Shown here: positions 6,899-54,000 of the stretch, piece after piece
Numbering within the stretch: position 1 is the stretch's first letter
Layout of the letters: each line of letters opens with the position of its first letter
NCBI GenBank assembly: GCA_021810525.1
Contig: JAJZIP010000001.1
Span: 1 to 64,000, forward strand
Source of the DNA: Actinomycetes bacterium
GTDB taxonomy: Bacteria; Actinomycetota; Acidimicrobiia; Acidimicrobiales; Acidimicrobiaceae
Length of the DNA: 64,000 bases
Direction: 5' to 3'
Translations under genes and position numbers: made by a program
Notes under the pieces: generated by a model
Databases searched by the model: none
What the model saw: the letters and a program-made list of their open reading frames with translations, nothing else
Told to the model about the DNA's origin: nothing

Positions 6899-7072
6899 CG
6901 GGCAATCTCCACCTGCGAAGACTGTCAGCGGTACTCCTGCCGACCAATAGGGAGTCGTGATGGAAAAATCCTCTCTGCTGACCAAAGGTGCGGCGAATTT
7001 GCGGTCACAATTGATCTAAAGAAGTTGAGATTTCCAGGCTGAGAATAAGTCTTGATCGCGAAAGGTGAATCG

Positions 7073-7612: not shown

Positions 7613-7700
7613 ATCAGGTTCGCTTCCATTTGAACTTGGTTATCCCGGGTCAATAATGAAGCTCGGATAGATGCGTCCGAGACCGGGGTAAAATAGACAC

Positions 7701-7958
7701 ATGGTCACCTTGATAATCGGGATATTGGTTACAGGACTGGTGGTCGGGGCGCTCGGCCGCTTATTGGTCCCCGGCCCGAATCCAATAGGTATCTTCTCGA
7801 CAATTCTAGTCGGGCTGGCAGGCTCAGTCTTGGGTGGAATCGTTGGACGACTTCTATTTGGTTCCCGTTACTCATACTCAGTCGGACTGTCTCTGGTGGT
7901 GTCAGTCATCTGCACGGCCGTGATCGTCTACGCTCTGCAGCGGCCAAGACATAGATAG
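7701..7958 (+). CDS. GlsB/YeaQ/YmgE-family small membrane protein
   Basis: An 85-residue membrane protein with three hydrophobic segments and the glycine-rich pattern [19 protein letters not shown]...[17 protein letters not shown] that marks the YeaQ/YmgE/GlsB (transglycosylase-associated) family. The family is stress-linked in several bacteria but its biochemical role is not established. ATG start; a purine-rich GGGGTAAAATAG stretch precedes it. It is monocistronic and converges with livF. Confidence 0.8.
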
Positions 7959-8025
7959 AGGAATCCGGCACTACTCGGCATGCCGGAACTGCGTATCAAT
8001 GCCTAGGCTCCCAAGTTCAGCGCTA

Positions 8026-8841
8026 TCAGGCAGTCTTCGACCTGACTTTTGCAAAGATCCCCGTTTCTTCGCTTCCCAGAGCCGTCCTGATCCGCACAGA
8101 CATGATCCTTTGCTTTTCCGGGTCTGCACCGATGGAATTTCCCACTCCGAGATAGCGCTCGATAACCTCAGGATTTTTAAGGAGCTCCTGGCCGGTTCCC
8201 CTAAGAGTGATGCTGCCTCTTTCGAGGAGCACCGCTCGGTCCGCTATGGAAAGGGCAATTTGGCCGTTCTGTTCTATGAGCAGGACTCCTACGCCCGCCT
8301 TTGTCAGGTTTGGCAGAATGTCGAAGATGGTCTGGACGACGATAGGGGCAAGTCCCAAGGAGGGCTCGTCCAAAAGCAGGTACTTGGGCTCAGCCATAAG
8401 ACCCCTGCCTATGGCCAGCATCTGCTGCTGGCCTCCGGAGAGTGAACCGGCCACATTGTTCAGCCGTTCCTTGAGCGCTGGAAAGATCTCCAGAACCTTC
8501 TCGAGCCTTTCTGCGGCCACCGAGCGGCTACTCCTGTAGGCGCCTAGATCGAGGTTTTCGGCAACAGTCATGGTTGCAAAGACTTGCCTACCTTCCGGCA
8601 CGTGAGACATACCGTTCGCGACAATTGCAGATGGACCGGCGTTGGTCAGGTCCTTCCCGTCCAAAGAGATGGAGCCGGAGCGAGTTTTGATCAGTGAAGA
8701 CAAAGTTCTCAGCAGTGTGGACTTCCCAGCGCCATTCGCGCCAATCACGGCGACCAAGGACCCAGGGGCAATTTCCAGATCGATGCCGTGCAGAACATCG
8801 GGTCCGTCATATCCTGAAACAAGGTTCTTAATTTCAAGCAT
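8026..8841 (-). CDS. livF: LIV-type ABC transporter ATP-binding protein LivF
   Basis: Second ATPase of a branched-chain-amino-acid-type (HAAT family) importer. Walker A GANGAGKST lies near residue 34, the Q-loop segment is followed by VPEGRQVFATMTVAENL (a LivF hallmark), the signature is SLSGGQQQM, and Walker B is YLLLDEPSLGLAP. At 271 residues it carries about 35 residues beyond the usual LivF end. Its start overlaps the upstream fusion gene by 8 bp. The transported substrate is unknown; HAAT systems also carry urea, amides and aromatic acids. Confidence 0.92.
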   Translation of the reverse strand: MLEIKNLVSGYDGPDVLHGIDLEIAPGSLVAVIGANGAGKSTLLRTLSSLIKTRSGSISLDGKDLTNAGPSAIVANGMSHVPEGRQVFATMTVAENLDLGAYRSSRSVAAERLEKVLEIFPALKERLNNVAGSLSGGQQQMLAIGRGLMAEPKYLLLDEPSLGLAPIVVQTIFDILPNLTKAGVGVLLIEQNGQIALSIADRAVLLERGSITLRGTGQELLKNPEVIERYLGVGNSIGADPEKQRIMSVRIRTALGSEETGIFAKVRSKTA

Positions 8842-11626: not shown

Positions 11627-12641
11627 GCTTTCATCCCCAAATCACTCCGTAACCCACAGGTCTCACTGCTAAGTCCATTCACTGTGTGGCTGCCTCTAAT
11701 GCCATTCGATTTGTCAATGCCGCTGTCCGGCGAACGTTGCTCTTCGGCCGGGCATTTGCTTCGAAAAACCATCGAGTGAAATTCGCCTTTCCGACTCGAT
11801 GCTGCTGCTACATCATCTCTCTCTTCTTGTTCCAACTCAAATCTCTGAAAGATTGCCATCTCATTTATAGAGCTCGACTCTATACGTACATGTCTGCTTG
11901 ATCTCTTGCCAGCTGTCTCTGCAACAACCGAAAGATAGGCACTGCCGGTGCGAAGGTAGATAGACGAGGTGATGGGACGGATTCTCGAGCCTGGATCTGG
12001 GTTAGAGAAGGTCGATTTAGCCCCAAGCGGCGAACCATTGCAAAGGCGACGTCTCTGTGCACGCCCCTTTCTGCTTCTCCGCTCATCTGACGGCCCCAAT
12101 TCTGAGTTAAAGCCCCCCAATGTATACTGTTTCCTTTTCCTTTGTCTCAGATGACCTTGAAGGTCGATCCCACAAATATCGACTCTGTGATCTCAGCTGG
12201 ACAGCATCGACACTTGTTGGTCGACAAGACCGGTTCCTAGTTACTGATCCGGCTTCTAATTTCTCCTAACAAATCGACGAGACAGCTCTTCTCGTAGAAC
12301 TCCCGAGACGGGTTGAACGGATACTAATAGGTGAACATCTTGATCGGTTAGCTGCTGACATTATTTAGATTCCGCTAATTCCCCTCAATTAAATTCCCTT
12401 TTTACTAGCACCCTCGGTGGTCTTAATCGTCAAATATTACACCTTAAGTATCAGTAAGTTTTCATATTCTATCTTCAATGTCGGCGAGGTCGCGGTCGCA
12501 CTTCGGGGATATGTTGCAAGCGCCTGTGTCACTAAAATGCTACGGCTGAGATACCTTCACAATTGCATCCCGGAGATGCTATTTTGAAACCCGACACTCA
12601 TCGACCGGAGAATAAACGCCCCCGATGTAAAGTGCTCGTGG
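11627..12641. other. Long intergenic region, partly AT-rich
   Basis: About 1 kb between the liv fusion gene and the pcaF-like thiolase, which run on the same strand. Open frames here (for example a 165-codon minus-strand frame ending at 11623) have no recognisable domain and arginine/serine-rich low-quality composition, so I do not call them. The stretch near 12350-12480 is clearly AT-rich and may hold the promoter of the liv genes. I see no tRNA, transposase remnant or terminator with a U-run. Confidence 0.5.
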
Positions 12642-13856
12642 CTAGCCCACGCTTTCAAAGACGGCGGCTATTCCCTGGCCGCCTCCGATGCACATCGTTT
12701 CGAGTCCGTAACGACTGCCTCGACGCTGCATCTCGTTCAACATCGTTGCAAGAATTCTGGCTCCTGTAGCCCCGATGGGGTGTCCAAGGGATATCCCAGA
12801 TCCATTGACGTTCGTGCGTTCGAAATCCGCCTTTGTGAATTTCCATTCTGCGGTGACAGCCAGGACCTGGGATGCAAATGCCTCATTCAGCTCGATTAGA
12901 TCCATGTCTGAAAGTCTCAAGTCGACTCTCCCCAGAGCCTTCTCCGTCGCAGGCACCGGTCCAATTCCCATGGTTCTTGGGTCGACGCCGGCTACGGCCC
13001 AGGAGATGAGCTTTGCAAGTGGATTGAGCCCGAGTTCGTGTGCCTTTTCCATAGTGGTGACTATGCAGACTGCTGCGGCATCATTTTGGCCGCTGGCGTT
13101 TCCCGCTGTTACGGTGGCTTCGGGGTCCACGCCAATCCTGATTGGACGCAGCTTTGCGAGCTGCTCCAGGGTCGTGTCTGCTCGCGGATGTTCGTCGGTG
13201 TCGACGATGACTGTTTCGCCGCGAGATTTCTTCACCTCAATTGGTACCATCTCGTTGGCGAACCAGCCTTCTCTTTGGGCCCGTACCGCTCGCTGGTGTG
13301 AGTTGTAAGCAAGTTCATCTTGGGCTTCCCTCGAGATCTTGTACTCGCGTCGAAGATTCTCTGCGGTCTCAATCATGCCACCGGGAACCTCGAAAAAGCG
13401 TCCGCCAGATGTCACCCTGCCTCTGGCGAGACGGTCGTGCATCATGACTCCGTCTCCTTTAATTCCTGTGCGAAGCCCCAAGACGTAATGCTCTGCTTGA
13501 GACATGCTATCTGAGCCTCCCGCAAGAACCAGGTCTGCCGCGCCGGTCTGGACCTCCATGGCTGCGGTGATGACTGCCTGGAGCCCTGATCCACACCTTC
13601 GATCGACCTGACAACCAGGAACCGAGATCCCTAGTCCAGCATTTAGAGAGGCGATCCGTCCCAGGGCGGGTGCCTCACCGTTTGGATAGCCCTGTCCAAA
13701 AACGACATCGTCGATGTCTGTGGCGGTTACTCCAGTTCGCTCGACCAAGGCAGAGATGACGGCTGCTGACATGTCCTGGACGCTAACCGTGCTAAGCACG
13801 CCGCCGAATCGCCCTACAGGTGTCCTCAACGGCGAACAAATGACAGCATCTCTCAT
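12642..13856 (-). CDS. pcaF: Acetyl-CoA acetyltransferase, probably 3-oxoadipyl-CoA thiolase (PcaF-like)
   Basis: Thiolase of 404 residues. The nucleophilic cysteine is C88 in VDRRCGSGLQ. The C-terminal catalytic histidine and cysteine are in GHPIGATGAR and METMCIGGGQG-like (ETMCIGGGQG). The family includes acetoacetyl-CoA and 3-oxoadipyl-CoA thiolases; the latter assignment is inferred from position, because the gene diverges from the operon encoding every other step of protocatechuate degradation. It would cleave 3-oxoadipyl-CoA to succinyl-CoA and acetyl-CoA. ATG start with GAGGAATT immediately upstream. Confidence 0.8.
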   Translation of the reverse strand: MRDAVICSPLRTPVGRFGGVLSTVSVQDMSAAVISALVERTGVTATDIDDVVFGQGYPNGEAPALGRIASLNAGLGISVPGCQVDRRCGSGLQAVITAAMEVQTGAADLVLAGGSDSMSQAEHYVLGLRTGIKGDGVMMHDRLARGRVTSGGRFFEVPGGMIETAENLRREYKISREAQDELAYNSHQRAVRAQREGWFANEMVPIEVKKSRGETVIVDTDEHPRADTTLEQLAKLRPIRIGVDPEATVTAGNASGQNDAAAVCIVTTMEKAHELGLNPLAKLISWAVAGVDPRTMGIGPVPATEKALGRVDLRLSDMDLIELNEAFASQVLAVTAEWKFTKADFERTNVNGSGISLGHPIGATGARILATMLNEMQRRGSRYGLETMCIGGGQGIAAVFESVG

Positions 13857-28126: not shown

Positions 28127-29128
28127 ATGGCGAAAGAAGGACGCGTATTTGTGCGTGGCATGACATCGCAAACATACGGACTTTCAGGATTTCGAAACAC
28201 GCAGCTCGAACTCAATCGTGTTAGGAGCGAGTCGATTGTAACCGATGACGCGACTGTCGGCCACTCTGGAGATTCCGAGGAGTCCCGTACCTGGTGGAAG
28301 ATAGGTCCAGGCGATGATGAGTTTCTCACTCAGACCCTTCAGGTGCACTTTGTCGAGCTTTTTCCGGGTGGTTCCAACCACGGACACGGGCACCAGAATG
28401 AAGCCCTCTTCTACATCCTTGAGGGTAAAGGGTATGAAATCCATGACGACAAGCGTTACGACTGGGAGAAAGGTGACCTCGTCGTGGTCCACAACGACTC
28501 GGTCCACCGTCACTTCAACGCTTCCGATACCGAGAGGGCACTGTGCATTATCTTTAAGGCTAAGTCGCAGTGGATGTTCCTAGGTATGATTCAACAGGGA
28601 CGGAGCGCACCGTTTGAAAAGGAAGGTTTTGGTCCACGCATTGATTGGGGTCAGGTCTGGATTGATGATGTCGAAAGCAGAAAGAAGGTCGTAAAGCCTT
28701 CAGACACCAAGTGGGAGGACGTGCCAGGAGGAAGAATCCGGGTAATGAGCTCTCCCGAGCGGACCGATGTTCGGGCATTCAGCGTTGACGTATATGAGCA
28801 AGAGGTTCGTGCAAACTCCGAGAGCGAGGCGCACTGGCACATGGCGGACGAAGTTGTCTATGTTCTTTCGGGGAGTGGAAAGAGTCTGCAGTGGCAGGTC
28901 GAGGCTGAGATCGCCGAAAAGTACTATGCCCATGTGGCCAACACGCAAAAAGCCTTTGATATTAGGCAGGGCGACGTTCTGTATATTCCGCAGAACACGA
29001 TTCACCAGTATGTGAATACGTCCAATGAGCCGCTGGTATTCCTCTCTGCTCAGAACAGGATGTTCAAGCTTCTTGGTTACAAAGACGAAATCCATGTGAA
29101 ACTGGACAACGGTCAGCCGGTATTCTAA
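28127..29128 (+). CDS. Bicupin, gentisate 1,2-dioxygenase-like (copy 1)
   Basis: A 333-residue protein with two cupin domains, about the size of gentisate, salicylate and 1-hydroxy-2-naphthoate ring-cleavage dioxygenases. Domain 1 has NHGHGHQNEALFYILEG and GDLVVVHNDSVHRHFN. Domain 2 has AHWHMADEVVYVLSG and GDVLYIPQNTIHQYVN. Both domains thus retain a HxH...E...H metal set, unusual because many such enzymes use only one site. Ring cleavage is a family-based suggestion; the substrate is unknown. The ribosome site is strong (AGAGGAGG just before ACC-ATG). The gene stands alone and ends in a hairpin. Confidence 0.78.
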   Translation: MAKEGRVFVRGMTSQTYGLSGFRNTQLELNRVRSESIVTDDATVGHSGDSEESRTWWKIGPGDDEFLTQTLQVHFVELFPGGSNHGHGHQNEALFYILEGKGYEIHDDKRYDWEKGDLVVVHNDSVHRHFNASDTERALCIIFKAKSQWMFLGMIQQGRSAPFEKEGFGPRIDWGQVWIDDVESRKKVVKPSDTKWEDVPGGRIRVMSSPERTDVRAFSVDVYEQEVRANSESEAHWHMADEVVYVLSGSGKSLQWQVEAEIAEKYYAHVANTQKAFDIRQGDVLYIPQNTIHQYVNTSNEPLVFLSAQNRMFKLLGYKDEIHVKLDNGQPVF

Positions 29129-32680: not shown

Positions 32681-34765
32681 CTAAATCATTCCATGAAACG
32701 TCAGGTGAAAAAGCATCACAAAGGCGAAAGCAAGCGCCCATGTGACAATCGTCGCTGATACAGCGAAAACAGCACGCTTTTTCAGGCTGGCAATATCTTT
32801 GTTCACCATTGCGTATATGAATGTAACAAGTGGAATTCCTATTTCAAAGCCGAGGACAAGCGCTCCTACCACAACTCCAAAGAACCAGAGTATTGCCACT
32901 GCTTCCCGTAAGTTCTGTTGGCGCCGGTCCTTCTTGGTGAGTGGCTCTTCTTCGTGTTCCATCCGCGTCATAACCGCAACGGTTGACATTTCGTCACCTC
33001 CAGGAATTGCATCCGATACCGTCTCCGCAGGTGCAGGAACTCCTTCGCCTCTTGACGGTTCAGTCGAATCAGCTTTTCTCACACTTAGCCAGACACGAAA
33101 ATCGATTGCAAGCCGATACAACGACACCACTGCAGCCAGAATCCCGACTACGACCGGTATTTCACCGGCTTGCGCGGGATATCCCAACCCGACAATGAAA
33201 TATGTGATTGAAAACGCTGCCATGACTAGATCGAACATCCACTCCATAAGCGGGTGCTTCGCCGCCTGGCGCGCCACTTCATTCTTGTTCTTGTGCCACC
33301 TCCTGCCTGCCGAGATTATCAAATAGATTGCCACCAAAAAGAAGAAGTCAGCCAGCGGACTCTTTGTGACAAAGTGGATGCCGTACAACGAATCTGTTAG
33401 GTGCACATTATCGTCAAAGGTACCGCCAAGTACAAGTCCGATGGCAGCGGCCGCTACGGAATACCCCAGATCCCGCACCACCACACCGAGAATGCTGAAC
33501 ACTACCAGAAGGTAGATCCCCATTGTCGTGTTCACGTCAGCAAAACTGCCAAGCGTCGCAAGGGCGACAATGAACGGGAACATGAATGGGCCCTTTATGC
33601 CTGTGATGCGCGCTAATTGCGGGGCCAAAACCAGTCCTAAAACGCAGGAGAGCAAACCCGCGATCGCCATTACCCACATCATTGAATACGGGAGCGTCGG
33701 AGAGCCTCTTAGTAATGTCGGCCCGGGCTCCAGTCCTAAAATTGTAAGAGCTGCGATGAAAATGACCATCCCGAGTCCTGAGGGAAGTCCCAGTGCTACA
33801 GCAGGTATCAGCGATCCGACCTCTTTCGAGAGCGAGGAACCCTCAGCAGACATGAGTCCTTCGGGCACCCCCGTTCCGAACAGGTCGCCTCTCTTGGAAG
33901 TCTTCTGGCCCACTCCGTAGGAAATGAAGTTCGAAGTGAACCCGCCGATTCCAGGCACGAGCCCCAAAAGTGTGGCGATTATCGCAGATCTGGCAACGTG
34001 GTACCAGCGACGAAACGTCTCGGCTATGCCCATGCGGACCTGGGCGGAGAAGTCTTCGCCGAGTTGCGAGAGATCGACAGATGCAACAGCCTTTCGGCTG
34101 CCATACATCTTGACCATCTGTGTTATGGCAAACACTCCCAGCGCGAACGGCACCACCCCGATCCCGCTGTACAGGGTGGGAAGTCCCAAAGTGAATCTCT
34201 CCACACCCGTTACCGGATCGGAACCCACGAAGGAGAGCATGAGACCCAACAGCCCAGAAAGAAACACTTTTGATAGCGGAATATTTCCCGTCTGAGCGAT
34301 GAGCACAATCGCCAAAATGATGATTGCCATGTACTCGGGCGGATGAAACACGGTTGCCAGAGGGCCTGCAAGTTGTATCAGTCCAATGAAAATTATGCAA
34401 GCTATCCATCCACCCATCCAGGTGGAAGTTGCCGAGATGGCGAGAGCCTTGCCCGCTTCCCCTCTTTTGGCCATCGGAAATCCATCCAACGTTGTCGGAA
34501 AGGATTCCGGCGCTCCCGGTGTATTGAGCAGGATTGCGGTGATAGAGGCGGCAAAGTATGCCCCAGACTGCGTAGCCAACATTATCGCAATAGTCTCGAG
34601 AATGCTCATGTGATATACGAAAGGCAGAATCAGTGTCAGGACAAGCACCACACCAAGCCCCGGAAGCATCCCAACCAGCATCCCGACAACCATTCCAAAG
34701 AGCAATAGCACCATGACCGAAGGAGACCACAGGTTGGTCAGTCCAGTGAATAAATGCGAGATCAT
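32681..34765 (-). CDS. TctA-TctB fusion, membrane component of a tripartite tricarboxylate transporter
   Basis: A 694-residue polytopic protein. Residues 1 to about 490 are TctA (PGLGVVLVLTLILPF, LNTPGAPESFPTTLDGFPMAKRGEAGKAL, GLVPGIGGFTSNFISYG), with the two conserved glycine/proline re-entrant-type segments. Residues about 505-694 form a four-helix TctB-like domain interrupted by a charged, Pro/Glu-rich loop (around 570-615). TctA and TctB are usually separate genes; the fusion gives the whole membrane unit in one polypeptide. The start overlaps the upstream VWA gene by 4 bp, and tctC copy 1 follows. It is the only TctA in the window. Confidence 0.9.
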   Translation of the reverse strand: MISHLFTGLTNLWSPSVMVLLLFGMVVGMLVGMLPGLGVVLVLTLILPFVYHMSILETIAIMLATQSGAYFAASITAILLNTPGAPESFPTTLDGFPMAKRGEAGKALAISATSTWMGGWIACIIFIGLIQLAGPLATVFHPPEYMAIIILAIVLIAQTGNIPLSKVFLSGLLGLMLSFVGSDPVTGVERFTLGLPTLYSGIGVVPFALGVFAITQMVKMYGSRKAVASVDLSQLGEDFSAQVRMGIAETFRRWYHVARSAIIATLLGLVPGIGGFTSNFISYGVGQKTSKRGDLFGTGVPEGLMSAEGSSLSKEVGSLIPAVALGLPSGLGMVIFIAALTILGLEPGPTLLRGSPTLPYSMMWVMAIAGLLSCVLGLVLAPQLARITGIKGPFMFPFIVALATLGSFADVNTTMGIYLLVVFSILGVVVRDLGYSVAAAAIGLVLGGTFDDNVHLTDSLYGIHFVTKSPLADFFFLVAIYLIISAGRRWHKNKNEVARQAAKHPLMEWMFDLVMAAFSITYFIVGLGYPAQAGEIPVVVGILAAVVSLYRLAIDFRVWLSVRKADSTEPSRGEGVPAPAETVSDAIPGGDEMSTVAVMTRMEHEEEPLTKKDRRQQNLREAVAILWFFGVVVGALVLGFEIGIPLVTFIYAMVNKDIASLKKRAVFAVSATIVTWALAFAFVMLFHLTFHGMI

Positions 34766-36201
34766 CTGGTGATTCCCCCTGATGTCTGAGAGATTACTTG
34801 ATTTGGCCCATGTCTGTGACTCATAGGTGCAACCGCCGCCGTGTATCTGTCCAGCAAACCCTCATAGAGTCTCAGCAGGTCTTCGAAAAGGGCTCTCAAG
34901 TCATCCAATATTTCGACTTTGACCGACTTTGGTTCTGAAATGTATTCCTCAGTGCTCGGATCCACAGTCCGTACATAGGGTTCGATTCCCCCCTCGGTCA
35001 GTTCATAAAGCGCCTTGTCGCTGCCTGCGAGAGCATATGATTGAGGTTCCTCTTTCACATAGCTTGTCCCGTAGTCGATGTCTAAGAGCTGCCCATCGGT
35101 AAGCACAAGCAATACTTTGGTTTCTGTCTGCAACTTTGATAACACCATCCCACAATGTCTAATGGCAGCACCCAGACGGGTCGCGTGCATCGGTTTCATC
35201 CCGGCCGCCCTGGCTGCTACGACTCCAGACATCGGCTCGTTGAATCCTTTAGTCTCACTTAGTACTACCTGTTCCCAGTTTGTGCCCGAAAACGACCAGA
35301 CGCTGAAAGCATCCCCAACTGAGTTCAGCGCGCTCGTGCACAAAAGTGAACTTATCACCTCGATGTCTAAAATTCTTGGTGGTCTCAATTTGAGTTCCGC
35401 CAGGATCGGCAACAGCGCCAGCTCTACGGGCTCCGCGTCTTCGACCCTATCTGCCGTGGATGCACGTACATCGACCAGAAGCAAGACCGGCAAGACCGGC
35501 AAAACCCTCCGCTTCCTCCTTTGGTCCAGGTAAACCGAGTCATCAATGCCACCGTCTGCCCGGATGTCGGCCAACGCTTCGACGGCTTCGTCATAGTCCA
35601 CGTCACACCCGCTGGTCGTGCGTCGCTCTACGACAATTGCCCGTGACGGCGTGATGTCCATTGTTCTTAGCAGGCGTCTAAGTTCTTTGGCACACCTGAC
35701 CTGAAGGGAGTTCCTCTCAAAATCACCCGAAGCTGTCGGCCGCCTTCGCGCCACTCGGCACCAGTCCGGCCTGAATCTTGCGATATACATCTCCGATTCA
35801 GGGTAAAGGAAGGTGCCGGGTCCGAGGGCTCCAAGCTCGCCTTCCTCATGGCGGTGCAGGCCGCAGGAGACATCATGGCGGTCGCGAGGCAGTCGCTCTG
35901 GTGAAACGGTCAGCGTGCGCTTTGATGCCACGGCTTCCGCGTCTCCGTCGCTCTGTGCGCTAGCTCGAACTCTGTCAAGCGCTTGATGATCTGCTCCTGT
36001 CGTTCTAGGGGTCTTGATAATAAAGGCTCCGATCGATCCCCGGCAGGAGACGCCCGGTAGTGAGAGTTGCAGGAAATCGTCACCTTCTATACGCACTCTT
36101 CCTCCCTCGGACCAGGGAGGGGGCCAGATGTCGGAAAGGCACCGAGCGACGAGGCGAAGGATGGTCAACTCCTGGCAATCCTTCAGCCGTTCCGGGCGCA
36201 A
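34762..36201 (-). CDS. NorD/CbbO-like VWA-domain protein
   Basis: A 479-residue protein ending in a von Willebrand A domain. YPESEMYIARFRPDWCRV and ETKGFNEPMSGVVAARAAGMKP...TRLGAAIRHC followed by KVLLVLTDG match the NorD/CbbO/CoxE-like group, which assembles or activates metalloenzymes with a MoxR-type AAA+ partner. The MIDAS motif DxSxS is degenerate here (LLLVDVRAST, residues about 240-250: Arg where the first Ser should be). A repetitive RVLPVLPVLLLV precedes it. TTG start. Coupled to tctAB by ATGA. No MoxR/CbbQ/NorQ gene is in the window, so the client is unknown. Confidence 0.75.
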   Translation of the reverse strand: MRPERLKDCQELTILRLVARCLSDIWPPPWSEGGRVRIEGDDFLQLSLPGVSCRGSIGAFIIKTPRTTGADHQALDRVRASAQSDGDAEAVASKRTLTVSPERLPRDRHDVSCGLHRHEEGELGALGPGTFLYPESEMYIARFRPDWCRVARRRPTASGDFERNSLQVRCAKELRRLLRTMDITPSRAIVVERRTTSGCDVDYDEAVEALADIRADGGIDDSVYLDQRRKRRVLPVLPVLLLVDVRASTADRVEDAEPVELALLPILAELKLRPPRILDIEVISSLLCTSALNSVGDAFSVWSFSGTNWEQVVLSETKGFNEPMSGVVAARAAGMKPMHATRLGAAIRHCGMVLSKLQTETKVLLVLTDGQLLDIDYGTSYVKEEPQSYALAGSDKALYELTEGGIEPYVRTVDPSTEEYISEPKSVKVEILDDLRALFEDLLRLYEGLLDRYTAAVAPMSHRHGPNQVISQTSGGITR

Positions 36202-36929
36202 AGTCCGAGAGTTTCTGTTCGTAATTCACTGACATCGTTACCTGACTCTCGCTATCAACTGCTGATGAAATGCTGGATTCCCGAACAGAGGCGTGGGCCG
36301 GATCAAAAGCTCAAGCAGCTCTCACGCTCCCATCATCTAAAGATCCAAGCGGATCAGAAAGAGAAAGGATCAGACTGTTGGTAAGCGCGTAAATGGCACC
36401 GCGGGAGAATTCGTTGATGACAGGCCGGTGAGTAATTGCGCCTGTATTTCCGCCCACCTCAATTACACCCATATCTCCACATCGATCCCCGGACTGAGAA
36501 ACATGAGTTCCGAAGTGCATCCAAGCGCAGCTAGAAAGCCCTTTAGAGACTCAGTATTTATCGAACCATTATACCGAGACTAAACAATCAGTCAAGTTAT
36601 AGTCGGAGAATCTATCGTGCATTCCACAGAAGAGAATTCTTCACAGGCGAGTTGACATCTCTCGAACAGACTGCGTGAGACTTATGTCACTATCCGTTGC
36701 CGACTACGTTTTGCTGTTGGAGGTCCACCTCGTTGTAGCGCGTGACTCGCCGTCAAGGAGTCCTGGCCAAGCCGGACAGAGCACTTCAGTTGCATATTGC
36801 CTCGAGAGAGCTGCAAAGTCATGCAATTCCGTACAAGCAGCTGCATCTCCGATGTATGTGACCAGACTAGTTTGCGCCGTTTCAGGAAACGGAGGCGGCG
36901 TTTTGCTTTGCATATGTAGAATCAGTTGT
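36202..36929. other. AT-rich divergent region before the GntR gene
   Basis: About 730 bp between the divergent VWA operon and the GntR gene. The stretch 36540-36640 is AT-rich and contains a partial palindrome (CCG..ACTA near 36572 and TAGTCGG near 36600), a possible operator. The frame open upstream of the GntR start is not typical coding sequence. No RNA gene was seen. Confidence 0.4.
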
Positions 36930-45572: not shown

Positions 45573-47366
45573 TCACCTGGCAGTATGCACGTGCACTACC
45601 GCAACATTGCCAGCAAGGGCCTGCTCCAGGGCTGCCTTCAGGCTTGCTGCTAGCTCATCGGGATCGTCGATAGGTCCATCAGCCCAACAGCCGTAGGAGC
45701 GGGCAAGCGAGGCGAGATCAATCTGCGGGTCGTCAATCCTCATTCCTATCCACGAATTTTCCTTGGGACGGCCGCGCCGAGTTGCAACTCTCGCCTGATG
45801 GGGTTCGTCGTTATAGAAAGAGTTGTTGTCATTTATGACCATCAACATGGGAATTCCGTAGTGCACTGCGGTCCACAGAGCCGAAGACGCCATCAGGAAA
45901 TCTCCATCGCCAACTATGCCGACTCCAAGTTTCCCCTGTTCCATGGCTGCCAAAGCCCCGCCAACCATCGCACCCGGGCCGTATCCTACTCCCCCGCCTC
46001 CTGAGTCTCCGAAATATTGTGCCGCCCCACCGAATTTCCAGATTCCCTCAGGCCAACTGCGAGTATTGCGTAGTAGCAGAAGCCATTTGCTGTCGCGAAC
46101 GGCATTCCATAGCTCGCCCACAAGTCTTATCTGGGAGATCGGTGAATCATTCCAATGCTTCTCGATAGCCGTCTGATTTCTTGCACGGCCCTTGGCAATC
46201 CGCACATGGATAACCTCTGATCTTTCCAGAGCGACTTGGGGATCTGAGATCTCACGAACGGCCTTATTGAGTTCGCTGAGACCGTAGATAGGATCTGCCA
46301 AAATGTGGATCTTTCTCGGACGCGCAATTGCCGAAGAGTTACTCCAAGACTTTGCTCCAGCATCACCTATTGACAGATCGATGATTCGAGCCGCTTCACG
46401 AGAGCCATCTCGCTGGTTTCTCGCTAAGAGGGAAGGAAGATCAACCACGTCCACAGAGAGAATCACGTCCGCATCCGCTATCACCTCACTAGCTGCATTG
46501 CAGTTGTTCGGGTGGTCGGTGGGAAAGGCGACCGTGTTGCGGTCATCGAGATAAGCTGCCCCCAACAGTTCGACCAGTTCGACGAGCAGAGCCGTGGCTT
46601 CCGGCGATCTCCCCACTCGACCACCGATGACTAGAGGCAGGCTTGAGCTGGTCAGCAGCAGGGCTGCCGCTCTTACAGCATCAGGATTGGCGGCTATGGG
46701 AGGCATCGGCTGGTGAAGCTCAAGTTCTATGACTGGTTGCTTGGATCCATCCACCTCGTCTTCTTGGAGAGCACAGTCAAGGGAGATATAGGTTGGGCCG
46801 AATGGAGCGGAATTTGCGATCTGGTGTGCTTTGACGAGGCTGTACACGAACGCAGACGCAGGAGTCGGCTCATCGTCCCATTTTACGTAGGAGCGAATCA
46901 GCTCTGCTTGCGTATCCGCCGAATGTATCCAGTCAATCGGCCTGCGTCTGAATCGATCTCTGGGTCCGCTTCCACCCAATATGACCATCGGGACTTGGTC
47001 CAGAAAGGCATCGTAGACGGCCATTGACGCGTGCATGAGGCCGACGAGATCGTGGATTGCCGCCGCGGCCGGCGTCCTGCCTACCTTTGCATAGCCATGC
47101 GCTAGGGCAATAGCGATTTCCTCATGCAGACAAAGAAGCAGCTTCGGATCTTTATTTGCGTGATAGTTGACTATCGAGTCGTGCAGTCCTCTGAAACTGG
47201 AACCGGGGTTAATTGCTATGTATTTGTAACCAAGATCCCCCAGAAGATCTACAAGTGCGTCTGAGCCATGAGTTGGGACGCTCTTGAAGGACTCCAAACC
47301 TTTGGGACTCTCTACTGCGCGCACGCTATGGTTTTCGCGCATAGCATTAGTGTCGTTTCCCCTCAT
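45573..47366 (-). CDS. Thiamine-diphosphate-dependent enzyme (benzoylformate decarboxylase / acetolactate synthase family)
   Basis: A 597-residue ThDP enzyme. The cofactor-activating glutamate lies in LCLHEEIAIALAHGYAKV (E82/E83) and the ThDP/metal motif runs from GDGDF (486-490) to NDNN (512-515). The family covers decarboxylation of 2-oxo acids and carboligation; neither the acetolactate synthase FAD features nor a specific benzoylformate signature is decisive. ATG 47366 has GAAGGTAG just before it. It lies 29 bp after the AAA+ gene on the same strand, so they are likely cotranscribed. Possible substrate: an aromatic 2-oxo acid (inference). Confidence 0.8.
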   Translation of the reverse strand: MRGNDTNAMRENHSVRAVESPKGLESFKSVPTHGSDALVDLLGDLGYKYIAINPGSSFRGLHDSIVNYHANKDPKLLLCLHEEIAIALAHGYAKVGRTPAAAAIHDLVGLMHASMAVYDAFLDQVPMVILGGSGPRDRFRRRPIDWIHSADTQAELIRSYVKWDDEPTPASAFVYSLVKAHQIANSAPFGPTYISLDCALQEDEVDGSKQPVIELELHQPMPPIAANPDAVRAAALLLTSSSLPLVIGGRVGRSPEATALLVELVELLGAAYLDDRNTVAFPTDHPNNCNAASEVIADADVILSVDVVDLPSLLARNQRDGSREAARIIDLSIGDAGAKSWSNSSAIARPRKIHILADPIYGLSELNKAVREISDPQVALERSEVIHVRIAKGRARNQTAIEKHWNDSPISQIRLVGELWNAVRDSKWLLLLRNTRSWPEGIWKFGGAAQYFGDSGGGGVGYGPGAMVGGALAAMEQGKLGVGIVGDGDFLMASSALWTAVHYGIPMLMVINDNNSFYNDEPHQARVATRRGRPKENSWIGMRIDDPQIDLASLARSYGCWADGPIDDPDELAASLKAALEQALAGNVAVVHVHTAR

Positions 47367-47395: not shown

Positions 47396-48304
47396 CTAGA
47401 TTGTTGTAGCCCGGTGCAGATGCTCCGCTTGGAGCCTCTCAGGACTGAGTGCCAATTCCTTGTTTTCCGAAAGCGCCTTGAGTGGCAACCTTCGAAGCTG
47501 TCGACCGTCCCAACCTTTGCAGGCTTGTGCAAGCTGGCGATGAAGAGCTTTGTCGTCTGCCAGTGCTCTAATCTCCGACCAAATGCCGGCCAGCTCGTCG
47601 AGGGACTGGGCAATTATCTTAGAAGCGGTCTCTACATCGGGTATTGCTATCGACAGGACCAAATCCGCGCGCGAAGTGAAAGCCTCGTCTATGGCATTTG
47701 GAAAGTTGGTGGTGGCAACTACCAATACGTTTGGACAACGTTTCATCAGCCGGTCCATGCCCTCGAGCACGGCGTCGCTCGCGCGGTGAACATCAATGGG
47801 ATTTGCCTCGAAAGATGCGGAGGAGCGGCGCACCGCAAAGCTCTCCACCTCATCTATCACCACAACAAGATGTCTGTATCTGAGCGATAGCTCCGGCAGC
47901 GAGGTGTCGAGCAGGCGCGCGACGTTTCGCTGGCTTTCCCCGAGCATCTCGCTAGGCAGAGCATGAGGGTTCACCTCCACCAGGCAGGTATCACCTTTGT
48001 CAGCAAGTTCATAAGAGACAACTTCCGCCAGACCAACTGAGAGCGTGGTCTTTCCTGTGCCGGGAGGACCCGATAAGATCACGAGTCTTTGAAGCGCCCC
48101 CGGAAGAGCATAGAACTCCTTCTCGTGAGCCAATGCCAACAGTGCATGGGAGAGCAGTCGAGACTTGATCCTTTCGTCAACGATGATTCTGTCCCAATTG
48201 CGTGTACCACCCTCGTCGGGCAGTACTCGAAGCGCGGAAACTCCGTGTATGGGGGCAGAGTGATGATGGTCTATGGCCAAGTCGGTCGCCTTACTTCCGG
48301 CCAT
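47396..48304 (-). CDS. TRIP13/Pch2-like AAA+ ATPase
   Basis: An AAA+ ATPase of about 302 residues. Walker A is LSGPPGTGKTTL, Walker B VVVIDEVESFAVRR, and sensor/arginine-finger segments are VLVVATTNFPNAIDEAFTSRADLVL. The IDEVES...AVLEGMDRL...TTNF...ID.AF.SRAD pattern is the one seen in TRIP13/Pch2 HORMA remodellers. No HORMA or CD-NTase gene is nearby. The ATG at 48304 lies inside the end of the bicupin gene (34-bp overlap); a TTG at 48280 after TAAGG is an alternative. It precedes the ThDP enzyme gene by 29 bp, so a role in assembling or remodelling an enzyme of this operon is possible. Confidence 0.78.
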   Translation of the reverse strand: MAGSKATDLAIDHHHSAPIHGVSALRVLPDEGGTRNWDRIIVDERIKSRLLSHALLALAHEKEFYALPGALQRLVILSGPPGTGKTTLSVGLAEVVSYELADKGDTCLVEVNPHALPSEMLGESQRNVARLLDTSLPELSLRYRHLVVVIDEVESFAVRRSSASFEANPIDVHRASDAVLEGMDRLMKRCPNVLVVATTNFPNAIDEAFTSRADLVLSIAIPDVETASKIIAQSLDELAGIWSEIRALADDKALHRQLAQACKGWDGRQLRRLPLKALSENKELALSPERLQAEHLHRATTI

Positions 48305-49338
48305 ACGATAGTGCTGAGATCTCCGGCTTGGGCGTTGCGAATATGGTCCGGCGGCTCCTCGAAAAGAACCAACGGGTCGCACAGCGCTCTCATGGTCTCC
48401 AAGACCGTGTCAAACATGTGGATTCGCACAACCTTGGCAGTATTGTCCGGATCGTCATTTATGTGCTGATGCCACAGGAAGTGGTCGACTATGATCAAGT
48501 CGCCTTTCTTCCAGGGATGGTTTTCTCCCTTGTCTGGTTCAGTTCCTAAGAATGAGTGGCCTTTGCCTTCGACCACGTACAGCCAGGCTTCGCCAGGGTG
48601 CCGGTGCATTGACTGCTGGCGGCCTGGGCCAATCTCGAACATTGCCATGGTGATGCCCGAGGCCTGATAGCCGACTGCTCTATCCAAAAGGAACGTCGTA
48701 CGGGTTCCACGCGGAGTCTGAAGGAACTCAAGTTCATCCCAGCTCGTGTGCAGCCGGCCGCTTCGCCGAGCTTCCTGCTCAGCCGCTAGACGTCGGATCC
48801 TTCTGGCATATGGATCGTTACCCGCTTTCCCACTTGTGAATGGCGGGCGGCCAGGGAGTTTTGAAAATGGTGTGTCGCCTTCGTCTTGTAAGGTTGCAAA
48901 GCCGAGAATCTCCATCAATGGTTCGCTGGAAAAGCTCATGTATCGGGCTGTGGCTTCGCCCTCGTTTCCGTGGCGGTGCCACGCCCACGCTGGCAGGTGA
49001 AGACTGTCTCCAGGCCCCCAGTTGATCCGAACGCCGTCGATCTCCGTCCAGCCATTTCCGCCAACGCAAAACATCATTGCGTCCCACGAATGGCGGTGAA
49101 TTGTCGATGTAACGCCTGAAGGGATTTCGTGTGCCGCGCCGTCCATCGTTCTCGTCGGCTTATCGGCATCGGGACCTATGTAGGCTCCAGAGATAAGGCC
49201 GCGGTCTGTCTGAAGCATTTCGACGTCCTCGATAGCGATGACAGTTCGTTGATTGCCCCGCCAGTCTTCTATGAACTGAGCTCGACGTTTCTTTTGAACT
49301 TCATAGTGGCTTGTTGAAGTTCTCGTCACATTGGTCAT
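48271..49338 (-). CDS. Bicupin, gentisate 1,2-dioxygenase-like (copy 2)
   Basis: A 355-residue bicupin. Domain 1 has TIHRHSWDAMMFCVGG with aspartate where the metal-binding glutamate usually is, and WHRHGN. Domain 2 keeps a full set: MHRHPGEAWLYVVEG and HFLWHQHIN. It is related in layout to the bicupin at 28 kb but distinct. Ring-cleaving or other oxygenase activity is plausible from the family, with the active metal in domain 2. ATG 49338 has GGGGAG eight bases upstream; a TTG two codons earlier is less likely. First gene of the bicupin/AAA+/ThDP operon, diverging from a FadR-type regulator. Confidence 0.75.
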   Translation of the reverse strand: MTNVTRTSTSHYEVQKKRRAQFIEDWRGNQRTVIAIEDVEMLQTDRGLISGAYIGPDADKPTRTMDGAAHEIPSGVTSTIHRHSWDAMMFCVGGNGWTEIDGVRINWGPGDSLHLPAWAWHRHGNEGEATARYMSFSSEPLMEILGFATLQDEGDTPFSKLPGRPPFTSGKAGNDPYARRIRRLAAEQEARRSGRLHTSWDELEFLQTPRGTRTTFLLDRAVGYQASGITMAMFEIGPGRQQSMHRHPGEAWLYVVEGKGHSFLGTEPDKGENHPWKKGDLIIVDHFLWHQHINDDPDNTAKVVRIHMFDTVLETMRALCDPLVLFEEPPDHIRNAQAGDLSTIVWPEVRRPTWP

Positions 49339-49802
49339 TAACAAGCTCCCCTTTGTAAATATCCGACTCTTCGCCTAGGCGGCACAAATGACCACCATAG
49401 CACAAAACACTGGCTGACCAGCGCCATACTGCTCTTGGATAACCGCTACGCACACGCGGAGCAACTCCAATCTGGTTAGCCCGGAATATTAATCTTATTG
49501 TCATACCCATGTGTAGGCGTATCAAGCTGTTGATTTTTTATTCGGTACCTCTCTGCTCTCGAGTCAAGAACTTTTGGTAACACGGCTTCGCAACGCCTTC
49601 GTTGTGACCTAATACAGAAGATGTGTCCCGAATGAGCTTTGAATGGGACGTTATAAGATGGACCGGAAATTTCAACGCGACCGAAACACCGTGACAGATG
49701 TTGATCCAGATGATAAAAATGGTTAGGGGTAGCTGATCGGCTAGCATGCATTTTGTTTGTGGGTCACTTTCAGGGGTCAGCAATAGATATACAGGAGTGA
49801 AA
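49339..49802. promoter_or_regulatory. Divergent region between bicupin operon and fadR copy 2
   Basis: About 460 bp that should carry both promoters. I could not assign -35/-10 boxes or a strong palindrome. Frames here on the minus strand (for example 49538-49834) cross into the regulator gene and look spurious. Confidence 0.35.
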
Positions 49803-50555
49803 GTGGGCGAAATGGAGAAGCCAGAGTCATCCAAGAATGATCATGGCATGAGTCAGATGTTCAGTCCAATAACCACTGTCAGGATCTCATCGATCATTGT
49901 GGATCGCGTGAGAGCCTTGATAAGAGAGGGCAAGCTGAAGCCGGGAGATCGGCTCCCTACCGAGAGGGAGCTGTGCAGTTCTTTTGGTATCGGAAGAGCG
50001 ACGGTTCGAGACGCTCTTAGGATCCTCGAAACCATCGGATTAGTTGAAGTGCGAGTCGGATCGCGCGGTGGTGCTTTCGTGAAGGCGCCAAGTTCACTTC
50101 AAATAGGTGCGGGACTAAATGACATGCTTGCGGCAGCTGCCATATCGGCAGCTGAAGTCCGTGAAGCCCGCCTAACGTTTGAGCTTGGCCTGATAGATCT
50201 GATCTGTGAACGTATTACCGAGGAGGACATTGCCAGGCTGGATGACATATGCACCAGGGCCAAGATAGCCGTCGAAGAGGACAACTATAGCCTTAATCAT
50301 TCCTTGGAATTCCACACTGCTCTCGCCCAATGCGCGCACAATCGTGCTCTAGACCTGATTATCGAGACATTCCAGATTTCACTGCAGATGTTCGAACGGC
50401 CCGTGAAGGAAGGCGAACCCAGTCGGGGAACGCCAGGCGTTCAAGAGCATTTTGATATCCTTGAAGCGATAAAAGCCAATAACTCCATCCTTGCCAAGGC
50501 AATTATGGAGCTGCATCGCAGCAGAACTCCGAAGCGCTTGAGGCTGATTGCCTAG
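49803..50555 (+). CDS. GntR-family regulator, FadR (FCD) subfamily, copy 2
   Basis: A 250-residue regulator closely related to the one at 26.4 kb: both have [18 protein letters not shown]-type N termini, then LKPGDRLPTERELCSSFGIGRATVRDALRILETIGLVEVRVGSRGGAFVKAP. The FCD half has LEFHTALAQCAHNRALDLIIETFQ and a later EHFDILEAI. The final HRS/LHRSRTPKRL tail differs from copy 1. I prefer the GTG at 49803, with AGGAG five bases upstream; ATG 49812 is possible. It diverges from the bicupin/AAA+/ThDP operon, which it probably controls. A 13-bp hairpin covers its stop. Confidence 0.86.
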   Translation: MGEMEKPESSKNDHGMSQMFSPITTVRISSIIVDRVRALIREGKLKPGDRLPTERELCSSFGIGRATVRDALRILETIGLVEVRVGSRGGAFVKAPSSLQIGAGLNDMLAAAAISAAEVREARLTFELGLIDLICERITEEDIARLDDICTRAKIAVEEDNYSLNHSLEFHTALAQCAHNRALDLIIETFQISLQMFERPVKEGEPSRGTPGVQEHFDILEAIKANNSILAKAIMELHRSRTPKRLRLIA

Positions 50556-50607: not shown

Positions 50608-51465
50608 TCAGCTACCCAAACACGACTTCAGTGACCTGAAAGCGAAGATGGACGCCATCTCACGCTTGTATGCCGCTGATCCGCGTTCATCATCCTGAGG
50701 CTCTACTATCTCGCGGACAGCTTCAGCTGCTCTACGAAGAGCGGCATCGTCACCAGTTGTCCCAACCAACAACTGGGATGCCTGGTTCGAAATTATCGGG
50801 ACACTTCCCACCCCGCAAAGAACCACCGATGCTGCTTCGATAATCTTTCCATCCGAGCCAAAGGTGACTGATGACCCCGCTCCGACCGTTGGGTAATCGC
50901 CTTCTGATGTTGGGGTATAACGAATATATGCCGATCGCCTGTTCGCCACAAGAGGAATAGTCACCTCGGTAATCAGCTCATCCGGATCGAGAACTGTCTC
51001 AAGAAATCCCTCATAGAATTCCGCCAACGGAATTCTCCTGGTCGACAAGCTGCTCTTCACCGACACTTCGGCACCCACAGCGATCAGCGCAGGAGGCATG
51101 TCCTGACGGGGATCGGCATGTGCAAGAGCACCTCCAAGGGTTGCCATCGCTCGCACTCGTGCGTTTCCGATCACCCCAGATGCCGTGCAAACACCTGGCA
51201 ACAGCCGGGCAATATCGCGATTTGCGGCAATCTCCGCTGCAGTAGTCATAGAGCCAATCTTGACCTCGCCGTCTGAAGCGAATATACCCTTGAGCTCGCC
51301 GACATTGCCGAGCCAGACAACCCGGGACGGCTCGATCAGGCGCGTCTTGTACAACAGCGCAGTAGAGGTCCCTCCACCAAGAAAAATCGCATCTTCTTTA
51401 GAAATACTTTCCAACGCTTCCGAGACCGAGGTCGGGACAAGAAATTCTGTTTCAGTTGACTGCAA
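50608..51465 (-). CDS. Molybdenum hydroxylase FAD-binding (medium) subunit
   Basis: FAD subunit of a three-subunit molybdenum hydroxylase, 285 residues. The FAD-binding segments are FLGGGTSTALLYK and ATLGGALAHADPRQDMP. I start at the TTG 51465, which has GGAGG six bases upstream and places FLVPTSVSEALE near the N terminus as usual; the longer frame to 51639 has no support. The start lies 14 bp inside the small-subunit gene. It passes electrons from the 2Fe-2S subunit to its acceptor. Confidence 0.87.
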   Translation of the reverse strand: MQSTETEFLVPTSVSEALESISKEDAIFLGGGTSTALLYKTRLIEPSRVVWLGNVGELKGIFASDGEVKIGSMTTAAEIAANRDIARLLPGVCTASGVIGNARVRAMATLGGALAHADPRQDMPPALIAVGAEVSVKSSLSTRRIPLAEFYEGFLETVLDPDELITEVTIPLVANRRSAYIRYTPTSEGDYPTVGAGSSVTFGSDGKIIEAASVVLCGVGSVPIISNQASQLLVGTTGDDAALRRAAEAVREIVEPQDDERGSAAYKREMASIFAFRSLKSCLGS

Positions 51466-51898
51466 GGTGGTCCTCCACTGCGCTAACAATCGTTTGGTAG
51501 CCGGTACATCTGCAAAGATTGCCGGCCATGTACTTTCTGATCTCTTCGGAGGTTGAGACTCCAGCTGAATCAATTGACGCTGCTGCAACAATCTGGCCAG
51601 GTGTGCAGATGCCACATTGCATTCCCTCATTCTCCACAAATGAATCTATGAGTTCCGGCATCTTTTCCGCCAAGCCCTCGATTGTCCAGACATCCTTGTC
51701 GACTAAGGTTCCAACCAGGCATATGCAAGAACTCACCGGAGCACCGTTCACCATGATGGTGCAGGCTCCGCACACTCCAACACCGCACCCTTCCTTGGTA
51801 CCCGTTAGCGACAGCCCTCTGATGACATCTAGCGCCAGGGACATTGGATCCACGTCAAGTTCAGTGCCCTTGCCATTCAAACTAAAGTTGATCTTCAC
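51452..51898 (-). CDS. Molybdenum hydroxylase 2Fe-2S (small) subunit
   Basis: A 148-residue two-cluster ferredoxin subunit. The plant-type cluster is GCGVGVCGACTIMV...SSC; the second is GMQCGICTPG...GNLCRCTGY. It transfers electrons between the molybdenum and FAD subunits. ATG start; it overlaps the large subunit gene by 4 bp (ATGA-type). The order large, small, medium differs from coxMSL in form I CO dehydrogenase. Confidence 0.92.
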   Translation of the reverse strand: MKINFSLNGKGTELDVDPMSLALDVIRGLSLTGTKEGCGVGVCGACTIMVNGAPVSSCICLVGTLVDKDVWTIEGLAEKMPELIDSFVENEGMQCGICTPGQIVAAASIDSAGVSTSEEIRKYMAGNLCRCTGYQTIVSAVEDHLAVN

Positions 51899-54000
51899 TT
51901 TGCGCTACCTTCCTTCATACCCCAGTAGATTGTCTCGGCTCTTATGGGGAGCCTCCTGATGCGTACTCCGGTCGCATCTTCGACTGCATTGGCAATTGCT
52001 GCTCCAGTAGGACAGTTGGTCAGTTCACCGACTGCCTTTATGTTATTGGGGCCAACGCCTTTTCCCCCGCGAAGAAGCGCAGTAGTCAGTTTGGGGATAT
52101 CTGCGACATTTGGAAGCTTGAACTCGCCCATACTCAACGCCCAAGGCTGTCCTCCTTCCTCTAACAGATCCTCCATCACCGCAAAGCCGAAGCCCATAAC
52201 AGCTCCACCGTCAATCTGCATCTGATGTGCCTTGGGATTAACAATCTCTGCAACATCTACAGCAGAGATCAACTCCAACACCTTCAGCTGGCCAGTCATA
52301 GGGTCGACCGCTACGCGCGCAAGTTGGGCCGAATACGCACCACTAGGACCATCGGATCCTTCATCGGTAGTGATTTCGACGACTTCCTGGTCTGCTGGCA
52401 TTTCTTTCCAGAGCTTGATCGCATTGGCTACGGCAACAGTGACGCCGAGACTGACCCTGCTTCCGCCTACGCCTGCGTCAGTCGGCAACAGGGAGGTAGA
52501 TACCTGGTTGACCTCTATCTTGTCCGCGCTGATTCCGAGACCGGTACGAATCATCTCGCGGACGACAGTCTGACCGCCAGCTCCATTTTCGGGAATAGGC
52601 ACCTCAGCAATCACCTTCCCGTTCTCGCCCCTCCGAAGTCTTAGACTGGTCTTCGGAACGGCGGCCATGCTTCGTGCGTATATCGCAACTCCTTCGCCAT
52701 GAAGCCATCCTTCGGGAACATCCACGGACTTAGGTTGCGACATCGCCAAGGACAGAACCTCTTTCCCCCGGTACTCCAGCCATACACTCCCATAGGGGTT
52801 CACATCCCCATCAGACAACAGGTTCAGTTCCCGAATCTTGATAGGCCCTATTCCGGATCGTCGCCCCAGTTCATCTAACGCCGATTCGAATGCAAATGCC
52901 GCCTGAGGCGAACCAGGAGCTCTCATATGGCCTTTGGGCTGATTATTGGTGTAGACAATCTTTGATTCGACAAAAAACTCGGGAATTCGATAGGCAATCG
53001 CCGCATCCACTATTCCATGTAGATTTACCGTGTTGACCGGCTTGAACCCCGCATAGGCTCCACCGTCCAAGAGCGCTTCGGCAATTCCTCCCACAAGTTT
53101 TCCGCTGGCGTCTATTCCTAGTCGAACTCTGATCTCGGATGAGTGGCGGCCGTCGGTTGACAAGAGATCGTCGCTGTAGCGAAGAACCATCTTCACGGGT
53201 CTGCCAACAAGAATTGATAACGCGGTACAGAGGGGTGCGTCACCCGGCGACCCCTTGCCTCCAAAATCACCGCCCAGAACGGTTGGCATGATCTCAACCT
53301 TCTTGGGATCGAGACCGAAGACACTCGAGAGGACGTCGCGTAGCCGATACGGACTCTTATTCGTATTCCAGACATTTAGAGAGCCGTCTGCATGATAGTC
53401 AGCGATGCATGCTTGAGGTTCAATGTAACCTTGATGGTCTCCCGGCGTGAAATAGGTTTCATCTATAACATGCACTGCGTTTCTGAGCGCAGATTCAGCT
53501 GCCTCGCGAGAACCATGCGAATCGACCGACTGGATGTTGCGACCTGAATCGGGAGTGACCACGGCACCTGCATACTCCCACGGCCGGTCATGAATCAGCG
53601 GGGAATCGGGCTGTATGGCTTCGCGTGCTGTAGCCACTGTAGTCAATTCTTTGTAGGTTACCTCAATGAGTTCAGCGGCTGCCTCTGCAATCTCGCGAGA
53701 TGTGGCAACCACCGCCGCAATCGGATCTCCCACCCTTCGGACTCGACCATCCGCCAGGATCGGTACATCAAATACCCGCCTTCCATACAAGTTCGCCCCG
53801 CCGGGTAGATCCTTCGCAGTAAATACCCCAAGGACTCCGTCTACCTCTTTGGCGGGAGAGATATCGATCTCCTCAATAAGTGCCGAAGGAAGATCGCTCC
53901 TCTTCACGGCGGCAAAGGTAGTCCCCTCAAGCACTACGTCGGCGGTATACTTAGCTGCCCCCGTGGCCTTTGCAACTGCGTCAATACGACGTTCTGACAT
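51895..54000 (-). CDS. Molybdenum hydroxylase large subunit (xanthine dehydrogenase / aromatic hydroxylase type)
   Basis: A 701-residue molybdopterin-cytosine-dinucleotide-type subunit. Cofactor segments are GGDFGGKG (243-250), MRAPGSPQ (R360), GVGGSR and the catalytic glutamate E659 in KAVGELTNCPTG. The AYRCSFR-type loop of true form I CO dehydrogenase is absent, so CO oxidation is unlikely. Likely reactions are hydroxylation of an aromatic N-heterocycle, aldehyde or aryl-CoA. Its neighbours (ornithine-cyclodeaminase-like protein and TctC) suggest a carboxylated heterocycle; inference only. No molybdenum chaperone (XdhC/CoxF-like) is in the window. Confidence 0.87.
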   Translation of the reverse strand: MSERRIDAVAKATGAAKYTADVVLEGTTFAAVKRSDLPSALIEEIDISPAKEVDGVLGVFTAKDLPGGANLYGRRVFDVPILADGRVRRVGDPIAAVVATSREIAEAAAELIEVTYKELTTVATAREAIQPDSPLIHDRPWEYAGAVVTPDSGRNIQSVDSHGSREAAESALRNAVHVIDETYFTPGDHQGYIEPQACIADYHADGSLNVWNTNKSPYRLRDVLSSVFGLDPKKVEIMPTVLGGDFGGKGSPGDAPLCTALSILVGRPVKMVLRYSDDLLSTDGRHSSEIRVRLGIDASGKLVGGIAEALLDGGAYAGFKPVNTVNLHGIVDAAIAYRIPEFFVESKIVYTNNQPKGHMRAPGSPQAAFAFESALDELGRRSGIGPIKIRELNLLSDGDVNPYGSVWLEYRGKEVLSLAMSQPKSVDVPEGWLHGEGVAIYARSMAAVPKTSLRLRRGENGKVIAEVPIPENGAGGQTVVREMIRTGLGISADKIEVNQVSTSLLPTDAGVGGSRVSLGVTVAVANAIKLWKEMPADQEVVEITTDEGSDGPSGAYSAQLARVAVDPMTGQLKVLELISAVDVAEIVNPKAHQMQIDGGAVMGFGFAVMEDLLEEGGQPWALSMGEFKLPNVADIPKLTTALLRGGKGVGPNNIKAVGELTNCPTGAAIANAVEDATGVRIRRLPIRAETIYWGMKEGSAK

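Follow-up and report, generated by a model that had tools for sequence, protein, structure and literature searches.

ATPases of the TRIP13/Pch2 family remodel HORMA proteins in meiosis, in the spindle checkpoint, and in the bacterial system CBASS, and to our knowledge the family has so far been known only for the remodelling of such proteins. Other AAA+ ATPases, of the MoxR type, act with a VWA partner on metabolic enzymes. For example, NorQD is required for non-heme iron insertion into NO reductase (PMC9976466; PMC13036017), and passages in two further papers describe CbbQO as a Rubisco activase (PMC4660213; PMC8718961).

Here we describe an ATPase gene in a stretch of 64,000 nucleotides (the window) that comes from an Acidimicrobiia MAG (3.57 Mb, 90.7% complete). 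The gene encodes an AAA+ ATPase of the TRIP13/Pch2 family (47396-48304, minus strand; 302 aa from ATG 48304) and adjoins a gene for a bicupin resembling gentisate and salicylate 1,2-dioxygenases (48271-49344, minus strand; 355-357 aa, with ATG 49338 the likely start). The ATPase represents a genuine and conserved branch of TRIP13/Pch2 that stands outside CBASS and is tied to bicupin enzymes, and its family membership and its linkage to the bicupin can jointly be held with very high confidence.

Comparison with the described systems brings out both likenesses and differences. Cap6 of type III CBASS is 37-42% identical to the window ATPase, has the same size and AAA motifs, also has no N-terminal adaptor domain, and is matched by the same PADLOC model for TRIP13 (PDLC00915); however, its gene adjoins those for a HORMA pair, a cyclase, and an effector, whereas the gene in the window adjoins one for a cupin. 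Eukaryotic Pch2/TRIP13 proteins are the best matches in the PDB by both sequence and fold and share the GxxGRxLRxLP sensor-2 motif. They differ in carrying the N-terminal domain of the family (PMC4439613), which the window ATPase is without, and in the residue pair of pore loop 1, which is W-F in place of M-L. NorQD and CbbQO would resemble the window ATPase in the ATP-driven maturation or reactivation of metal enzymes that we propose for it, but they belong to another AAA+ clade and have a VWA partner that the window operon lacks, so that the likeness is one of function and not of homology.

Gene structure and family of the ATPase

As the open reading frame stands, the ATPase gene overlaps the bicupin gene by 34 bp, the figure given in an earlier note on this DNA. 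An alternative start, TTG 48280, gives a protein of 294 aa. Because the fifth codon of the longer frame is TAG in two of seven congeners, and because the TTG at codon 9 is present in all eight genomes compared (the window genome and the seven congeners), TTG 48280 is probably the true start, in which case the overlap shrinks to 10 bp. Between congeners, pN is 0.09-0.12 and pS 0.72-0.82. With pN well below pS, purifying selection on the gene is strong, and it is therefore a selected gene and not a chance open reading frame. Bicupin and ATPase are very likely carried on one transcript. The arrangement of the genes is as the earlier note had it, with the gene for a thiamine diphosphate (ThDP)-dependent enzyme starting 29 bp downstream of the ATPase gene and a FadR-type (GntR/FCD) regulator diverging from the cluster (49746-50555, plus strand; FCD 1e-20, GntR 1e-19). 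This regulator is found in each congener whose contig extends that far.

The motifs from which the TRIP13/Pch2 family was originally proposed (IDEVES, TTNF, and SRAD) are seen in an alignment, which contains Walker A (GPPGTGKT), VVVIDEVES, TTNF, SRAD, and the sensor-2 stretch GWDGRQLRRLPL; Walker A and B, sensor 1, the arginine finger, and sensor 2 are all intact. Among PADLOC models, PDLC00915 for TRIP13 matches the protein at 4.5e-87 and the second-best model at 1.9e-16; since the former value goes to a gene outside CBASS, tools that annotate defence systems may count such a gene as antiphage. A phmmer search of the PDB placed C. elegans PCH-2 (4xgu) first, at 9.3e-32, human TRIP13 second, and CDC48 lower, at 1.7e-23, and a profile built from cupin-linked relatives again had PCH-2 as its top match. 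The AlphaFold model (pLDDT 80.7) gave PCH-2, TRIP13, or EcTrip13, from the E. coli HORMA:CdnC:Trip13 complex, as its 16 best Foldseek matches. In a phylogenetic tree, CDC48 was split, with support of 100/100, from the TRIP13-type sequences as a whole, among them C. elegans PCH-2. Placement of the ATPase in a clade other than TRIP13, which the earlier note had named beforehand as evidence against its assignment, was thus not seen.

In the model, residues 1-17 are disordered, the structured portion starts at about residue 20, and the N-terminal substrate/adaptor domain of eukaryotic TRIP13/Pch2 is absent. This absence is compatible with the bacterial TRIP13 branch; Cap6, of the same length, also has no room for such a domain. 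A MoxR or CbbQ identity was ruled out by the Pfam search, in which PF00004 matched strongly, PF07728 reached just 0.0006, under its cut-off, and CbbQ_C had no match, so that the AAA_5/CbbQ_C architecture of MoxR and CbbQ was not seen. Profile, PDB sequence, fold, and tree all uphold TRIP13/Pch2 as the family, and it came out best in the structure prediction and profile comparison that the earlier note had recommended.

Relation to CBASS

A plasmid collection contained 12 proteins that are 37-42% identical to the ATPase over 86-96% of its length; below them came a gap, followed by CDC48-like matches at about 30% and one archaeal match. All 12 relatives precede a HORMA pair and a CD-NTase and represent Cap6 of type III CBASS, two of the loci being without annotation and shown to be CBASS by tblastn. 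TRIP13-type matches on plasmids were CBASS at every bacterial locus examined. There were no relatives of the ATPase among viral contigs, and no match to the bicupin on plasmids at E<=1e-20. As a separate observation, a Haloarcula halophila plasmid carries an archaeal TRIP13-type ATPase (7905-8909; PADLOC TRIP13 5.5e-61). Among the hypothetical genes that come after it, one has a weak HORMA-like match (E 6e-8), and this may be an archaeal CBASS-like system.

That CBASS Cap6 proteins are the closest relatives outside cupin loci would suit an ATPase that remodels a HORMA-fold protein encoded elsewhere in the genome, or one that plays a defence or signalling part within a metabolic cluster, as a remnant or variant of CBASS. 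The earlier note had seen no HORMA or CD-NTase gene near the ATPase. This is true of the window, where genes for an effector are also absent from beside it, and it extends to the whole genome for the bacHORMA_2 and SMODS models. The bacHORMA_2 model (PF18173) had no match in the 16 genomes that bear the ATPase, the window genome included, in a search that could miss a very divergent HORMA, given that in every CBASS pair the leading HORMA lacks a Pfam match. The positive control, a genome from a phylum-wide sample (G769) with a true CBASS locus and its TRIP13-type ATPase, did give a match. The SMODS cyclase (PF18144) had no match in the window genome or, overall, in 14 of the 16; in the other two (G245 and G282) it lies on a different contig from the ATPase and without HORMA. 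A CBASS remnant was rejected on the lack of any HORMA or cyclase match to these models in the window genome.

The pore loops offer a further comparison. Pore loop 1 was located by alignment to the PCH-2 loop containing W221 and F222, residues that have been mutated in published work (PMC4439613). It reads [EQD][ML]LG in 18 of 18 cupin-linked ATPases, including the distant G301 and G106b, and S[SAG][ASE][MHL]G in 13 of 13 ATPases of the CBASS type. In the tree, CBASS sequences are nested among the cupin-linked ATPases, and a single clade of all cupin-linked sequences was marginally rejected (AU p=0.042, with several branches long). The difference in pore loop 1 does not simply trace back to a single event on this tree. 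The cupin-linked ATPases thus probably do not form one clade separate from CBASS, a pattern that can be counted in favour of a defence-related role. If the rooting is right, the metabolic use of TRIP13 could be as old as its use in CBASS, or older. Nevertheless, the distinct pore loop and the strong conservation beside the bicupin speak against a HORMA or CBASS role, as do the searches for HORMA and cyclase genes, and we consider such a role unlikely.

Recurrence of the bicupin-ATPase pair

The order of bicupin followed by ATPase is found in all seven congeners that hold the ATPase. Outside the genus, a bicupin lies immediately upstream of the ATPase in G347, G268, G245, G282, G106, G395, and G099, and the distant bicupin-ATPase loci of Acidimicrobiia show identities of 34-50%. 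At the G099 locus, found in a genome scan, the ATPase is 40% identical, the bicupin directly upstream of it is 46% identical, and there is no ThDP gene. In a survey of 395 genomes of the class, most of them draft MAGs, the ATPase occurs in 10, the bicupin (counted at E<=1e-40) in 9, and both in 9, a co-occurrence with a Fisher p of 1.7e-17 uncorrected for kinship. In the tenth ATPase genome, G301, the ATPase gene is preceded by those for two divergent bicupins and a Dpp-like ABC transporter, and the last transporter gene overlaps it by 4 bp. The same locus (4350-13243) has, after the ATPase, a small HicB-like open reading frame, named from its sequence only.

In G601, from the phylum-wide sample, genes for a ThDP enzyme, an aldehyde dehydrogenase (ALDH), and a bicupin are convergent with that of the ATPase, and the linkage therefore outlasts a change in orientation. 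The partnership of bicupin and ATPase recurs in the window genome and about nine related lineages, in two orientations; a lack of any such linkage in other genomes, which the earlier note would have taken as refutation, is not what was found. Bicupins also occur without an adjoining AAA+ gene, standing alone at two loci (L093 and L112), and G463 has a bicupin, a mono-cupin, and a ThDP enzyme with the ATPase absent.

Other genes accompany the pair to varying degrees. Molybdenum hydroxylase genes of the CoxM/CoxS/CoxL type (50608-54000, minus strand) form a neighbouring catabolic unit in the genus, and their homologues lie near the ATPase at several distant loci (L069, L070, L072, and L077). The ATPase could accordingly be pictured as a chaperone or regulator for the whole cluster, acting for instance on the molybdenum hydroxylase or a transporter, with its tie to the bicupin a product of operon history; a passage in PMC12657314, which describes a MoxR-type ATPase in a CO-dehydrogenase gene cluster, can be counted for this. 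However, homologues of the CoxLMS type were not seen in the examined stretches of L071, L073, L090, and L113, whereas a nearby cupin gene is constant, and a cluster-wide role is distinctly unlikely. More generally, the window is rich in catabolic genes between 31456 and 62434, with three TctC-type binding proteins, a TctA permease, a UbiD-like decarboxylase, the CoxLMS-like hydroxylase, and CoA-transferase genes, most of these names being read from the sequence only.

The ThDP-dependent enzyme (45573-47366, minus strand; 597 aa, with TPP_enzyme N, M, and C domains) resembles benzoylformate decarboxylase and PRK08327 (1.4e-71), its closest PDB entry being benzoylformate decarboxylase 4q9d. Its plasmid homologues adjoin aldehyde dehydrogenases, and one adjoins a TctABC-type transporter. 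Its gene could point to an ATPase that mainly serves the ThDP enzyme, in cofactor loading, tetramer assembly, or reactivation, with the bicupin a mere neighbour in the pathway: beyond its closeness in the window, it is retained after the ATPase in every congener whose contig extends that far, it adjoins the ATPase at a second locus of G106 (in the order mono-cupin, ATPase, ThDP enzyme, the last 37% identical), and it lies near the pair in G601. Yet ATPase and bicupin stay adjacent with no ThDP homologue in the examined stretches of L043/L069, L070 (a short one), and L071-L075, and the ThDP protein evolves faster, with a dN of 0.22 against 0.12 for the ATPase and 0.07 for the bicupin. Service to the ThDP enzyme is quite improbable. 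The bicupin is the constant partner of the ATPase and the ThDP gene a looser third member; of the conserved order of three genes that had been proposed, the bicupin-ATPase part recurs widely and the ThDP part is often missing. Operon rearrangements alone would favour an ATPase that lies beside these genes by chance and is functionally unconnected with them. This is scarcely credible, since the partner stays the same across two orientations and about nine lineages that have diverged, and since presence and absence are matched over 395 genomes.

The bicupin as a candidate client

The bicupin has two Cupin_2 domains in Pfam. Gentisate 1,2-dioxygenase 3bu7 is its PDB match (2.7e-23), and Foldseek matched its model, with a pLDDT of only 67, to salicylate 1,2-dioxygenase. 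The cupin residues HxH, E/D, and H are invariant across 14 relatives. With gentisate and salicylate 1,2-dioxygenases, its nearest PDB matches, the protein shares the bicupin fold and the His ligands, but the similarity is remote and lies well under the NCBIfam cut-offs. A plausible pathway would be one in which a ring or side chain is cleaved and the product then decarboxylated. An N-terminal segment of the bicupin (TSHYEVQKxRR; THYxVQKxRR) was considered as a TRIP13-linked tag and rejected; it is a trait of the family, because it is common to bicupins without a TRIP13 neighbour, whether solo, CbbQ-linked, or AAA-less. A low-confidence model shows it as a helix resembling that before the second cupin domain. 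The window also holds a second, distant bicupin (28127-29128, plus strand; about 22% identical to one of the clustered paralogues described below, L094), with no linkage to AAA+ genes of the TRIP13 or CbbQ kind.

Three further bicupins are encoded in the window genome, one solo (L093) and two clustered (L094 and L095, on G000:C156), the latter 62% and 57% identical to the window bicupin. The clustered pair adjoin, in two gene orders, a CbbQ/NirQ/NorQ AAA+ (PF08406), a VWA-type protein of about 710 aa, and a protein of about 490 aa that has no match in Pfam, NCBIfam, or the PDB. The VWA-type protein has no Pfam VWA match; a DxSxS (MIDAS-type) motif as in CbbO and NorD was read by eye. Members of one bicupin family thus adjoin two unrelated kinds of AAA+ remodeller, and the placing of paralogous bicupins beside CbbQ/NorQ and VWA is the main ground on which we propose a role for the TRIP13-like ring in maturing or reactivating the bicupin. 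The client of the CbbQ/VWA system may itself be the protein of about 490 aa rather than the bicupin.

From the gene neighbourhood, we lean somewhat towards the bicupin as the client of the TRIP13-like ATPase, for activation or metal uptake. The ATPase would most likely assemble into a hexameric ring in direct contact with the bicupin, as is proposed because it lacks the N-terminal domain that binds adaptors, and would spend ATP on opening or refolding a part of the bicupin. The remodelled bicupin might then take up its Fe or Mn cofactor, free a dead-end ligand, or attain its active assembly, and its product would be handed on to enzymes further along the pathway, for example the ThDP decarboxylase. 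In this scheme we infer the physical interaction, the remodelling substrate, the step of metal insertion or reactivation, and the pathway. A wider generalization, more tentative and falling short of an even chance, is that one bacterial branch of TRIP13/Pch2 is dedicated to bicupin oxygenases as their activase or metallochaperone, in parallel with a like service of CbbQ/NorQ and VWA to the paralogous bicupins. A targeted search found no literature linking TRIP13 with cupins or gentisate in such a role, and none linking bicupins with AAA+ ATPases. If true, a metabolic enzyme as a standing partner would mean that the remodelling principle of TRIP13 is not bound to HORMA clients, and the bicupin-ATPase pair would provide a simple two-gene system for asking what a TRIP13 ring recognizes.

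A remnant of a CbbQ/VWA-type operon is also present within the window (34762-36241, minus strand). There the first 37 residues of the protein of about 490 aa (49% identical to L095) continue directly as the VWA-type protein, of which residues 247-683 are present (61% identical to L095). Missing are the CbbQ gene and the greater part of the first gene, and TctA comes next, as at the intact L095 locus.
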